Assembly (NCBI GenBank): GCA_015709595.1
Contig: CP054178.1
Location: 2,981,205 to 3,045,204 of the forward strand
Source of the DNA: Phycisphaeraceae bacterium
GTDB taxonomy: Bacteria; Planctomycetota; Phycisphaerae; Phycisphaerales; SM1A02
Reading direction: 5' to 3'
DNA length: 64,000 bases
Both the position numbers and the translations under genes were made by a program. Shown here in pieces: positions 8,478 to 41,244 of the stretch. The stretch's first letter is position 1. Each line of letters opens with the position of its first letter. The notes beneath the pieces are model-generated. The model did not search any database and was not told where the DNA came from. It saw nothing but the letters and a program-made list of their open reading frames with translations.

Positions 8478-8506
8478 TTGGCACTCGAAGGGATACCTGG
8501 TACGCT
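8478..8506 (+). promoter_or_regulatory. Sigma70-like promoter for the 8.5-12.6 kb cluster
   Basis: TTGGCA at 8478-8483 and TACGCT at 8501-8506 are separated by 17 bases, and the -10 is preceded by TGG as in an extended -10. Transcription would start near 8513, 15 bases before the ATG at 8528. This favours 8528 over the in-frame ATG at 8324. Confidence 0.55.
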
Positions 8507-8527: not shown

Positions 8528-9598
8528 ATGTACGCGATCGCACTGAAGATCGCTGTGTGGGTGCTCGGGGCCGCTGCGGTCGTTTTCCTATCCTTCGGGG
8601 CTGCGCGGCTCGTTGCAAAAGAATCGGGAAACGCGCTTCGCGTCGGGGGGGGCATCGATCTCGGCGTCATCGAGCCGTTCGCGACCGTGTCGGCTGATAT
8701 TCTCGTCAGAAACGAGTCGGTCGACTGGGTTCATATCGAAGACCTGATCACGACGTGCGGCTGCGTCAAGGCCGCGATGGCGGCCGACAGTGTCGGGCCT
8801 GCGCAGGCCGCGACGCTCCGCATCGTCGCGGATGCCTCGAAGGCTGGCGGCGAGCGCTTCAGCCAGACCGTCTTCCTGATCGCTCGGTCGGCGACAGGCC
8901 GGCGCGAGCAGCACCGCATCCAGGTGACCGGCCAGATCGACCGCTCTGGCGACCTTCGCGCCACTCCGGGGCGGCTCTACGTCGTCGTGCCCGAAGGGGG
9001 CGAAGTGGTGCGCACGATCGAACTCCGAGGGTCCGAAGCCGGGGTCGCGACATTGCCTGCGGAGATCGAGTATTCCGGCGCCAACATTGTCGTGCGCGGT
9101 GACAACCGCGACGGTGCGATCGGACTAGCGAAGCGTACGATGTCGGTGGTTTGCCGCCCGGACGCGGCAGCGGGGGAACTTGTAAAGGGTGAGATCAAGA
9201 TCATTCTCGCCGGGGAGCGTGAAGTGGCGAGCGTGCTGCCGATCACGCTCGAAGTGGTCAAGCCGATCGCACCGTCCCCAGCCGCTCTCTTCGTGGCACT
9301 GACGGAGCGCGGCGCGACTGTAGAAGTCCCCTTCGCTCTCCACTCCTTCGATGGCTCGACGGTGCGCGTCGAGTCGATTGGAGGCGACGCGCCGGTTAGG
9401 TGGCGACGTACTGACCCGGACTCTGACGACGTCATCCTGACATTCGCGAATGATGAGTGGCCTACGGGCATCTCACGCGACGTTATTCGGGCGTGGACGA
9501 GCCAAGGCGATGTAGTAGAAGTTCGATTGGTCATAGTCCGCTCGACCGTCGAGACCGTCGGCGCGGACAGCGGCGAACAACCAACAGATCAGCCCTGA
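8528..9598 (+). CDS. Membrane-anchored DUF1573-domain protein
   Basis: A 356-residue protein with an N-terminal membrane segment (residues 5-29), then a DUF1573-type immunoglobulin-like domain: IDLGVIEPFATVSADILVRN and the conserved TTCGCVKA at residues 75-81. Two further beta-rich repeats follow (up to about residue 340), and the tail is acidic and Pro/Gln-rich. DUF1573 proteins are exported and common in planctomycetes and Bacteroidetes, and their role is unknown. The stop codon overlaps an ATG (ATGA at 9597-9600) in frame with the following cysteine-rich gene, so the genes form an operon. Third codon positions look less GC-biased than in clpC or gyrA nearby (judged by eye). An upstream ATG at 8324 is possible but less likely, given the promoter position. 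Confidence 0.78.
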   Translation: MYAIALKIAVWVLGAAAVVFLSFGAARLVAKESGNALRVGGGIDLGVIEPFATVSADILVRNESVDWVHIEDLITTCGCVKAAMAADSVGPAQAATLRIVADASKAGGERFSQTVFLIARSATGRREQHRIQVTGQIDRSGDLRATPGRLYVVVPEGGEVVRTIELRGSEAGVATLPAEIEYSGANIVVRGDNRDGAIGLAKRTMSVVCRPDAAAGELVKGEIKIILAGEREVASVLPITLEVVKPIAPSPAALFVALTERGATVEVPFALHSFDGSTVRVESIGGDAPVRWRRTDPDSDDVILTFANDEWPTGISRDVIRAWTSQGDVVEVRLVIVRSTVETVGADSGEQPTDQP

Positions 9599-9615
9599 TG
9601 AAAGGAAGAAGACCG

Positions 9616-9981
9616 ATGAAGCAGATCATCTCAGCTGGCATTCTCGCGATCCTCGGGGTCGGCGGTTTCGCGCTGGCGCAGGATCCTGGCAACCGGGGAC
9701 CGAGCGGCAATTGCTGCGACTGGACCGTGAACAATTCCTGTGTGACAGGATCGTGGAACTGCGTGCCATTCCTCAACGGCTGGTGGAAACTCGTCGAGCA
9801 GAACGACTTCCCTGTCTGCGAGACTCGTGACGGCCAGCCCGTCGGATCGTCGTGCACCAGCCATTTGGATGTCTGCGCAAGGTTTGAGATTTACGACAAC
9901 CCCAACTGCACCGGGGAGCCCACCGGAACGGCAACAGCAAGGAAGGGGCATTGCGACGCTGGCTCGGACCAGTGTCTGTGA
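9616..9981 (+). CDS. Secreted ten-cysteine mini-protein
   Basis: A 121-residue protein with a clean signal peptide (MKQIISAGILAILGVGGFALAQ) and a mature part of about 98 residues with ten cysteines, opening GNCCDWTVNNSC and ending CDAGSDQC. The even cysteine count and export suggest a disulfide-bonded extracellular or periplasmic protein. An in-frame ATG at 9598 overlaps the previous stop and could also initiate. aaaggaag precedes ATG 9616 at a suitable distance for a ribosome site, so 9616 is favoured. It lies between the DUF1573 gene and the two-part membrane protein gene. I do not recognise the family; the layout recalls small secreted Cys-rich peptides of planctomycetes. Confidence 0.72.
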   Translation: MKQIISAGILAILGVGGFALAQDPGNRGPSGNCCDWTVNNSCVTGSWNCVPFLNGWWKLVEQNDFPVCETRDGQPVGSSCTSHLDVCARFEIYDNPNCTGEPTGTATARKGHCDAGSDQCL

Positions 9982-10013
9982 CTTGCTCTCGACCCAGACC
10001 GCATTGCCCGGGG

Positions 10014-10020
10014 AAGGAGG
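10014..10020 (+). promoter_or_regulatory. Strong Shine-Dalgarno for the two-part membrane protein
   Basis: aaggagg lies seven bases before the ATG at 10028. It is unusually strong for this window and fixes the start well inside a longer open frame that begins within the preceding gene. Confidence 0.8.
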
Positions 10021-10027
10021 TAATCCC

Positions 10028-12553
10028 ATGACAGCCCTCGGTAGCACATTGACGCTTTGGTTGTGGATGTGCGGTGCTGGGTGGCAGGACTCCGAAACCG
10101 TCCGCTCTCTGCTGGAGGCACGGTTGTTACGGCTCCAGCATGTTGTGGTGGAATATCGGCAGGCAGAAGAGACTCTAATCGCTCTCGGCGACAAGACCGA
10201 AGTGAACGGAGTGAGCGTTACCTTCGACGATGCGTTCCGGGAGAAGATCTGTCGCCTCACAATGCTAGGTGGCGACGTTCTGTACGATGTGCGAATTGCC
10301 GACTCTTGCCTCGATGCGGTGCGCTCCGGAGAGATTGCAGAGCCCGTTCATGCGGTGCGACTCTTGACGCGCGAGCGCGACGAGAAACTGATTCAGCCGG
10401 CACCAGGGCGCGAATACTACGGGAATGTACGTGACCCGTCTACTCTGCCGACCTCTCTTGTGATGCATCAGGCGCTGGGCATCGCCCTCGCGAATCGAGA
10501 GGTCGTGTGGATCACGCAGGGGTTGCTCGCCTCCGCAGGGTTGGCGATCAGTTCGTCAGGGGACGTGGAAGTCGAATGGGTTGACCCGAGTGACTCGAAG
10601 CACCGTTGGCTGTTCGCGCGCGACGCGGGCATGGCCCTCGCACGCTACTCAGTACTCCCTCGGAACGCGGTGTTCGAGACTCTTGTCATTGAGAATGCGG
10701 ACTTCAGACAGGTCGACGGAGTCTTGCTGCCTTTCCGTGTCGAGCAACGACGGTATCGCGAGATCGACGGCCAGCGCCGTGTGAGTCACGAAACACACAT
10801 CGACGTCGAGTGGTATCGTCTTCCCACGAGTCGTCGGGACGATTTGCGGATCAAGTGGCCGCCAGGAGTCCCGGTCTACGATGCCCGAACCGGAACCCGA
10901 TACGAACCCGACGGAGCGGGTGGGCTCCAGGAGGTACATTCGCGCCTCACCGGGGAGGATGGCCCGGAGGGAACTGATTCGCCGGTTCGTTCAACTAACA
11001 CTCGAACGTCTTCCCTATCGGGGTGGGGTGCGATTCTGATTGGCGTGATCGCTGGAGGGCTGGCCCTTATCCTGTCGAGTCGCTCATCTCGACAAATGAC
11101 GGTGTCCGGAACGCGGGTGCCGAGCGCCTTGATCATCGGGTGTTTCATCACGGGGGCATTCGGTTACGCACGTCCTGCGCTTTGTCAGGATGCGGCATCG
11201 TCGGATCGGCTGAATCTCGGAGACTCCCTTGAGAAAGGCCTTCGCGACTGGGCAGATCGCCGTGCTCGCTTTCTCGTCAACGCATCAGGCATCATTGTAG
11301 AGCGCCTCACGCGTGACCTTCAACTCGACGCCCAACAGCGCGCCAATGGCGTGGAGTTGTTCTTGACCTATCTTGACGAGCTGGAGGTCGCCAGCAAAGC
11401 GTTCAATTCGGCAATGAAGCAGTGGAAGGCGGAGTACTGGGCAGGTCGAATTATGCTTGAAGAGAACGTCATCCAATTTCCCGGAGAATCAGCGACTGTC
11501 GGGTGGAAGGTAGCGACCGACGTCGGCCCCGACGGCGCGGTGCACTACACGTTGGCGCCGTTGGAGGCGGTAGATGGCGAGTATAAGCGTGCGAGTGGGA
11601 TGGAATATGCTCGTTTGTACAGAGAGATGGTGTTGGCTCCGACGCAGGCGGCCCGCAATCGAATGGTTCAGAACATCGTTGCGATGCTCGATGAGACCCA
11701 GTTGCGGCTCTGGAATCATCGCGGCTACCGCCGATTCGAGATCGCACTTCATGATGCGATGACGCCCCGAACCGCCGGTCGGCCCAATCCAGACCCGGAT
11801 ATGCTGGGCCTTCTCGAAGAGGCCGCTCTCCACGGAGGTGAGCTCGAGGCCTTCGCCTCCGTGATCTTCGCCCCGCTCACGTTCGAGCAGAGTGCGAACG
11901 TGGAGGCAGAAAGGGTCGAACTGTCGAGCATCGCGGCCATAATCGAAGCGTTCGAGATCACCTATCTGGCCGCGCTCGAAGGCCAGCGTGAGCGATGGGA
12001 GGACGTGTTCAAGTACCGCGCGAAGGGACTGGAGAAAGCCGATCCCGAGGCCCAGCGCGTGGAGAATGGATTGCGGCGCATGTATCGCAACACGTGGGGC
12101 GTCCGGCAAGGGCTTGTGTCCAACCTCCAAGCCGCCGTGGTGGAAGCGGTCGGGCCGGAGGCCGCGGCACAATGGGAGGAGCGCTTCGTCGAGCGCTGCT
12201 CGCCATGGCTCTTCGAGCCGGATCGGATAGACGCCATCGCAACACGCCTTGAAACGGTCGAGGTCGCTGCCGACTTACGCGAGACCCTCGAACGGATCAT
12301 TGCGGAATACGAAACGGATCGACGGCAACTGCGGATCCGTACTTCGCAGGCGACGATCGACCTGCGTGGTTCGAAGCCGGAGGGACAGGCGGACATTCAA
12401 GCACAGATACATCGTCTGCTCGGGGCGCGAGAGCAAATCGAGGACCGCACTATCGCGGCCATCCGCGCGATCTTGCAGTCGCGTGCGCCGGGGGTCGTGT
12501 CGGCCGTCATGGGTGATCCACCGCCGCCCGCAGATGCGGGTGGCAATGAGTGA
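10028..12553 (+). CDS. Two-part exported/membrane protein, apparent fusion of two genes
   Basis: An 841-residue protein with two halves. Residues 1-356 start with a short hydrophobic segment, continue as a beta-rich exported domain (DVEVEWVDP, VLPRNAVFETLVIENADFRQVDGVLLPF, reminiscent of LolA-like folds) and end in a membrane segment (GWGAILIGVIAGGLALIL) plus SSRSSRQ, which looks like a natural C-terminus. Residue 357 is a Met that opens what looks like a fresh signal peptide (VPSALIIGCFITGAFGYARPALCQ), followed by about 450 mostly helical, charged residues. No stop separates them. At the junction (11096-11099) the bases are ATGA, so a one-base shift would restore two overlapping genes. No known enzyme motif is seen in either half. 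Part of the 8.5-12.6 kb cluster. Confidence 0.7.
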   Translation: MTALGSTLTLWLWMCGAGWQDSETVRSLLEARLLRLQHVVVEYRQAEETLIALGDKTEVNGVSVTFDDAFREKICRLTMLGGDVLYDVRIADSCLDAVRSGEIAEPVHAVRLLTRERDEKLIQPAPGREYYGNVRDPSTLPTSLVMHQALGIALANREVVWITQGLLASAGLAISSSGDVEVEWVDPSDSKHRWLFARDAGMALARYSVLPRNAVFETLVIENADFRQVDGVLLPFRVEQRRYREIDGQRRVSHETHIDVEWYRLPTSRRDDLRIKWPPGVPVYDARTGTRYEPDGAGGLQEVHSRLTGEDGPEGTDSPVRSTNTRTSSLSGWGAILIGVIAGGLALILSSRSSRQMTVSGTRVPSALIIGCFITGAFGYARPALCQDAASSDRLNLGDSLEKGLRDWADRRARFLVNASGIIVERLTRDLQLDAQQRANGVELFLTYLDELEVASKAFNSAMKQWKAEYWAGRIMLEENVIQFPGESATVGWKVATDVGPDGAVHYTLAPLEAVDGEYKRASGMEYARLYREMVLAPTQAARNRMVQNIVAMLDETQLRLWNHRGYRRFEIALHDAMTPRTAGRPNPDPDMLGLLEEAALHGGELEAFASVIFAPLTFEQSANVEAERVELSSIAAIIEAFEITYLAALEGQRERWEDVFKYRAKGLEKADPEAQRVENGLRRMYRNTWGVRQGLVSNLQAAVVEAVGPEAAAQWEERFVERCSPWLFEPDRIDAIATRLETVEVAADLRETLERIIAEYETDRRQLRIRTSQATIDLRGSKPEGQADIQAQIHRLLGAREQIEDRTIAAIRAILQSRAPGVVSAVMGDPPPPADAGGNE

Positions 12554-40848: not shown

Positions 40849-40850
40849 AT

Positions 40851-41236
40851 GGCGTGGACAGGCGGCCGCCGGCGTTGCAAGACGCACGGAGGAAAGTCCG
40901 AACACGACAGGACACGGTGACGGGCAACACCCGCCGACTCCGGTCGTGGAGTCAGGGAAAGTGCCACAGAAAACACACCGCGAAGGGCGCAAGCCCCCGC
41001 AAGGGTGAAAAGGTGCGGTAAGAGCGCACCGCCCGGGTGGCGACATCCGGGGCAGGGCAAACCCCACCGCGTGCAAGCGCAAGCAGTTCCCGGGCGTTTC
41101 GGCGCCGGTCCCGGTCCGGGGCTTCGCAAGACGGGAGCGGGTCGCGTGCTTCAGGCGTCCGGCAACGGACGTCGCAGAGAAATGGTCGCCGCGGGCTCCG
41201 ATCGGGGCTCGACAGAATTCGGCTTACGTCCACGCC
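40851..41236 (+). ncRNA. rnpB: RNase P RNA, bacterial class A
   Basis: The catalytic RNA of ribonuclease P that matures tRNA 5' ends. Ends pair as helix P1: GGCGTGGAC (40851-40859) with GTCCACGCC (41228-41236), nine perfect pairs. Conserved class A segments appear in order: GAGGAAAGTCCGAACAC, ACAGAAAACAC, GGTAAGAGCGCACC, CAGGGCAAACCCC and ACAGAATTCGGCTTAC near the 3' end. About 386 nucleotides, the usual size. The -10 box lies immediately before the 5' end and a hairpin follows the 3' end. It is divergent from the gene at 39872. Confidence 0.97.
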
Positions 41237-41244
41237 ACGACCCG

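Follow-up and report, generated by a model that had tools for sequence, protein, structure and literature searches.

In Bacteroidetes, the NVEALA/DUF1573 gene neighbourhoods encode a small exported peptide near a DUF1573 protein. DUF1573 proteins (PF07610) are widespread and of unknown role, and the family includes selenoproteins that carry UGC at the position of a CxC motif, as listed in two reviews (PMC9312934, PMC13188914). An invariant CxC on an Ig fold is also found in CsgC, a periplasmic protein of the curli system (E0' -139 mV, with -167 mV for a CGC peptide), for which a redox role in the assembly of the secreted product has been proposed (PMC3173608; see also PMC4316792).

The planctomycete locus described here encodes four kinds of protein, designated A, B, L and H. 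Protein A passes the Pfam cut-off for DUF1573 and has CGC at the site of the CxC motif, but it differs from other DUF1573 proteins in being tied to a Cys-rich mini-protein, B, and a membrane protein, L, and in the second Ig-like domain that follows. Protein A is comparable to CsgC in its periplasmic Ig-like domain; its CGC, however, apparently lies in another loop than the CxC of CsgC, which is not membrane-anchored, and none of the module proteins searched matches a curli family. The exported domain of L has the same predicted fold as the LolA/LolB carriers and RseB, but L lacks a Pfam LolA match and is tethered by a C-terminal transmembrane (TM) helix. The C-terminal segment of H superposes on CnrX, whereas H is a larger protein than CnrX and the LTXXQ-type periplasmic helical proteins, falls below their Pfam cut-offs and has no invariant residues. 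The first-pass annotation knew of no described system with such a layout, and none was found in the literature searched (DUF1573 with cysteine-rich proteins; NVEALA). We place the layout among periplasmic chaperone/redox assembly modules, a categorically new system being the minority case.

Organization of the locus and its copies

The window, that is, the whole stretch of 64,000 nucleotides analyzed, corresponds to G000:C1:2981205-3045204 of a host genome that consists of a single contig of 3.84 Mb. Its open reading frames include three consecutive, co-oriented genes, A, B and C, on the + strand (8528-12553; Table 1), in agreement with the first-pass annotation. The close or overlapping starts reported there were likewise found, as the ATG of an alternative start of B, at 9598, overlaps the stop codon of A in the form TGATG, and Shine-Dalgarno-like sequences precede all three genes. 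The good promoter did not hold up: a sigma-70 scan returned none on the + strand (one promoter-like site overall, against 0.9 expected), and the best candidate, read by eye, is weak. By hydropathy, A has a single TM near its N-terminus, B starts with a signal peptide, and C carries a TM between two exported-looking halves, in agreement with the proposal that all three are envelope proteins. Codon use is less GC-biased than in the surroundings, as first observed, with GC3 values of 0.75 in A, 0.75 in B, 0.67 in the L-half of C and 0.70 in its H-half, against a background of 0.85 +/- 0.058 (61 ORFs). Because the other four copies of the gene set in this genome are mostly low as well (0.61-0.78, except one H at 0.88), a foreign origin was not adopted. 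A recent transfer was considered and rated low. The window also contains an RNase P RNA of bacterial class A (40850-41241).

The description of C as a two-part protein is explained by the fact that C joins L and H, which are separate proteins in relatives. The two halves are retained, but the view of a three-gene unit gives way to that of a set of four components, two of which, L and H, are fused in this locus. The fusion could be a recent event or an assembly indel. The internal Met of C (residue 357, DNA 11096) is followed by a second hydrophobic, signal-like stretch. The ATG of this Met, at the start of the H-half, shares bases with a TGA in another frame, an arrangement also seen in ATGA-coupled gene pairs.

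Table 1. Features of the locus, in window coordinates, and further copies of the module in the host genome (G000)
Feature	Position	Strand	Remarks
Candidate promoter TTGGCA-N17-TACGCT	8478..8506	+	Weak; 8/12 consensus bases; read by eye; under scan threshold
Gene A, membrane-anchored DUF1573 protein, 356 aa	8528..9598	+	Upstream SD GGAG; Pfam and module A profile
A: N-terminal transmembrane anchor, residues 3-21	8534..8590	+	Hydropathy
A: DUF1573 domain, residues 43-134	8654..8929	+	Pfam; relative's domain predicted PapD/ASH-like Ig fold
A: Cys-Gly-Cys motif, residues 77-79	8756..8764	+	Kept by almost all module A proteins
Gene B, exported 10-Cys mini-protein	9616..9981	+	Alternative start 9598; signal peptide
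Gene C, L-H fusion, 841 aa	10028..12553	+	Strong SD GGAGG; profile scores
C: L-half, likely divergent member of the LolA/LolB-like membrane protein family	10028..11095	+	L profile; fold assigned on relative L121
C: transmembrane helix, residues 330-348	11015..11071	+	Hydropathy
C: H-half, helical and exported, starting at an internal Met followed by a signal-like segment	11096..12553	+	H profile, model
C: helical segment resembling CnrX (periplasmic metal-sensor fold)	12215..12532	+	VIA superposition
Module copy L038	near 818 kb of G000		H-B-L-A
Module copy L055	near 1169 kb of G000		H-B-L-A, overlapping starts
Module copy L010	near 1683 kb of G000		B-L-A-H
Module copy L054	near 2524 kb of G000		H-B-L-A

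When C and A were searched separately in genomes of the same family, both matched one contig of genome G036. The genes there are ordered H (helical, like the C-terminal half of C), B (12 mature Cys), L (exported domain with a C-terminal TM) and A (DUF1573), with the start of A overlapping L; the whole of C as a query gave no match in the named-genome scan. The host genome contains five copies of the set in total, one in the window and four others, the latter mostly in the order H-B-L-A. L and H are separate genes in the other four and fused only in the window, where the order A-B-(L+H) represents one rearranged variant. The genes tested around the five copies differ at each site and bear no relation to one another (ClpC, diacylglycerol kinase, SOD, M20 peptidase, CtaA and an EF-hand protein). 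A NadB-like protein encoded next to the module in the window has its closest matches, at 65%, in Phycisphaerae/Phycisphaerales MAGs, which places the genome near these.

The L profile matches 25 of 181 genomes of the same family (19 of 45 genera) and 18 of 392 sampled genomes of the phylum; the latter include B-L-A sets in another family of the same taxonomic order, and weaker L or L-A cases occur elsewhere in the sample. Co-occurrence was examined by running HMMs for the four parts on fetched loci picked through L. At the 44 L loci of the family genomes, B adjoins L in 32 (a count that takes in five mini-genes recognised by inspection), A in 28 and H in 28, with B, A and H all present at 17. 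Both B and A are found at 23 of the 37 loci with enough flank, B only at 5, A only at 2 and neither at 7 (Fisher p 0.002, with kinship ignored and loci selected through L). The order varies, with A-B-L in L112 and L119 and adjacent L-H in L104, and L and A are fused into a single ORF in L095, L107-L111, L121 and others; therefore, the same parts are kept while their order changes. H-L pairs without A or B also occur (L094, L098, L102, L104 and L114), as do a few B-L loci without A. Across genomes the homologues are kept together in order at the level of the module, rather than being single and scattered, and the existence of a four-part planctomycete envelope module is well supported. It is repeatedly reused, usually as H-B-L-A with coupled or overlapping starts. 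The module is real, but DUF1573 and H also occur outside it: seven DUF1573 genes of the host genome exceed the Pfam cut-off, four of them in modules, and the H-type family has 15 matches there, nine of which lie away from the five copies and from a tandem copy at 1689 kb.

Family assignment and predicted folds of A, L and H

The DUF1573 anchor proposed for A is confirmed by its N-terminal TM and by its Pfam score, which is 30.8 bits as a protein and 33.6 bits in the genome search (cut-off 26.1). Against a module A profile built without it, window A reaches 67.0 bits, compared to 9.3 for the best of 300 shuffles, and by this score its assignment to the module A family is certain. Module A proteins consist of an N-terminal anchor and two predicted Ig-like domains, and the first of these carries a Cys-Gly-Cys that is present in nearly all members. 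A natural L-A fusion from a relative, L121 (P0004), was modelled with a mean pLDDT of 76.8. Its residues 494-590 superimpose on the PapD-like domain of HYDIN (Z 10.3, rmsd 2.2) and, with Z of about 8-9, on the N-terminal domains of Caf1M, CsuC and FimC, which are pilus chaperones (8.5-8.8 for Caf1M and FimC). The CGC immediately follows strand three of the modelled domain. Searches of PDB sequences with the A profile returned nothing convincing.

L comprises an exported domain and a C-terminal TM anchor. Residues 66-333 of the L121 model superimpose on LolB of Porphyromonas with a Z of 13.9 (rmsd 3.9 over 220 residues), and the L domain further matches LolA3 (Z 13.4), a Vibrio LolA-like protein (Z 13.0) and RseB (Z 8.2). 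From this relative, the exported domain of L is predicted to adopt the curved β-sheet half-barrel fold of LolA/LolB. The Pfam LolA model matches none of the 35 L members, no convincing Pfam match of any kind was obtained for them, and PDB sequence searches with the L profile were equally without a convincing result. The L-half of the window, the model of which has low pLDDT, scores 14.4 bits against an L profile from which it was left out, where the best of 300 shuffles reaches 7.7, and likely belongs to the L family.

The H-half of the window gives 95.5 bits against an H profile built without it, compared to 11.4 for the best of 300 shuffles; judged from the profile, its place in the H family is certain. 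Its model has pLDDT values mostly above 80. The last 100 residues superimpose on CnrX in VIA (Z 10.7, rmsd 2.3), a Z that is within the chance range of helical bundles, and a Foldseek search with the C model found no PDB match. No Pfam LTXXQ or Metal_resist match exceeds the cut-off (the best, at E 0.002, has 19.2 bits where 24.3 are required), and two of the 29 H members show weak LTXXQ matches (E up to 0.1). Judged by their predicted folds, L, A and H are each similar to periplasmic carriers, chaperones or sensors, a likeness that shows no function by itself.

The mini-proteins and a candidate disulfide role for A

Window B carries exactly ten Cys and a signal peptide, as first read. The B genes of relatives encode a signal peptide and a conserved 12-Cys framework. 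The expectation of homologues with conserved cysteines is borne out at the level of the module, where mini-proteins occupy the same place, but not for window B, which scores 7.2 bits on a B profile built without the window sequence, equal to the best of 300 shuffles (7.2). In the genome search the profile matches exactly the other four copies and leaves window B unmatched, and single-sequence searches with window B yielded no convincing relatives. Because profiles do not recover it, window B is assigned only by its position beside A and L, its export signal and its high Cys content, and is therefore a divergent or replaced mini-protein. Pfam and NCBIfam searches gave no convincing match among 31 B proteins, and none of the 31 matches the Pfam NVEALA model. 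The mini-proteins adjacent to L have no obvious lipobox.

No thioredoxin match, and so no thioredoxin fold with CXXC, was detected in A, B or C. A UGC variant in selenoproteins usually marks a catalytic redox Cys. MauE is a family linked to disulfide formation, and at L047 (8235-9509, minus strand) DUF1573 is fused behind a MauE domain (PF07291, above the Pfam cut-off). In one case (n=1), the L-A fusion of L107 (G342:C80, 5035-6645, minus strand), CGG replaces CGC and the strand that carries it has no B gene; a divergent set next to it retains CGC together with a B. The conservation of CGC, the UGC selenoproteins, the MauE fusion, the example of CsgC and the CGG case therefore make a disulfide role of A on B the leading hypothesis.

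In the mechanism we propose, B would be the product of the module. After Sec export it may be held by L and H, acting as carrier and chaperone, while the CGC of A would make or shuffle its disulfides prior to release; B would then pass to the envelope or to the outside, each paralogous copy serving its own B. We infer the action of A on B indirectly, and consider such a dedicated periplasmic folding or assembly station, in which the CGC of the DUF1573 protein would carry out thiol-disulfide reactions on B while L and H would serve as its carrier and chaperone, the best explanation, plausible though somewhat short of probable. The L-A fusions, the L-H fusion of the window, the co-occurrence of B, A and H, the restriction of B profile matches to the other four copies, the LolA/LolB-like and PapD-like folds predicted for L and A, and the redox clues around CGC argue for it. 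The size of the H family, the seven DUF1573 genes, the H-L pairs without A or B, the few B-L loci without A and the unrecognised window B argue against it, as do the weak and poorly modelled L-half of the window, a CnrX Z near chance and the apparently different loop of the CGC relative to CsgC.

A bolder form of this reading, in which a PapD-like DUF1573 protein would be a CGC thiol-disulfide chaperone lacking the thioredoxin fold and would, together with a membrane-tethered LolA-like carrier, mature a secreted family of 12-Cys mini-proteins as a previously undescribed envelope machinery of Planctomycetota, appears doubtful; if true, it would provide the first defined function for DUF1573. 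Since the module ties a DUF1573 protein to a candidate substrate and to partners with carrier or chaperone folds, a redox-chaperone function is directly testable. With B and L, the analysis further delineates two protein families absent from Pfam, in a repeated, recombining gene set of a little-studied phylum.

Alternative roles of the module

Envelope proteins rich in Cys are a recurrent feature of the PVC group, and the B copies are divergent from one another, as expected of surface proteins. B might accordingly be a disulfide cross-linked structural block of the envelope or cell surface, for which L, A and H would form a co-assembled scaffold rather than catalysts. We regard this as unlikely, as folds of the LolA and PapD types usually belong to carriers and chaperones, and the UGC selenoprotein variants point to a catalytic Cys. 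A complex that senses envelope stress or redox state, in which L and H would form the membrane sensor, A would be a redox transducer and B a redox-sensitive ligand, is suggested by the structural matches of L to RseB, itself a LolA-fold protein, and of H to CnrX, a sensor domain. L and A, however, have no large cytoplasmic domain, and no sigma or anti-sigma gene is present among the flanking genes tested at the five copies, a set that varies by copy; we hold a sensing role to be improbable, and a sigma-factor locus was likewise considered and rated low.

The even number of mature Cys in most B proteins bears on a third possibility, that of metal handling, with B as a periplasmic metallothionein-like protein, the CGC of A as a Cu(I)/Hg site and H as a metal sensor. 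The Cys-rich character of B is consistent with it, as are the CnrX-like end domain of H and a weak Metal_resist match in one L member (E 0.002). Even Cys numbers in exported proteins, however, favour disulfides over metal, the H alignment is devoid of invariant residues, and no metal transporter occurs among the tested neighbours, which leaves metal handling very improbable. Finally, although B is small, exported, Cys-rich and diverse between copies, as would be a secreted antagonistic, bacteriocin-like peptide for which L, A and H served in maturation or immunity, its Sec-type signal peptide instead of a double-glycine leader, the lack of a peptidase-exporter among the tested neighbours and the coexistence of five copies make this highly improbable, and a bacteriocin cluster was rated low.

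Small Cys-rich genes were also seen at two other loci. At L235 (G338:C1, 4811-7116, minus strand), in a distant family, two similar exported mini-proteins with 8 Cys in another framework flank an L-like gene, and a small ORF at L236 (G545:C1, 6853-7248, minus strand) encodes 29 Cys in repeated motifs.
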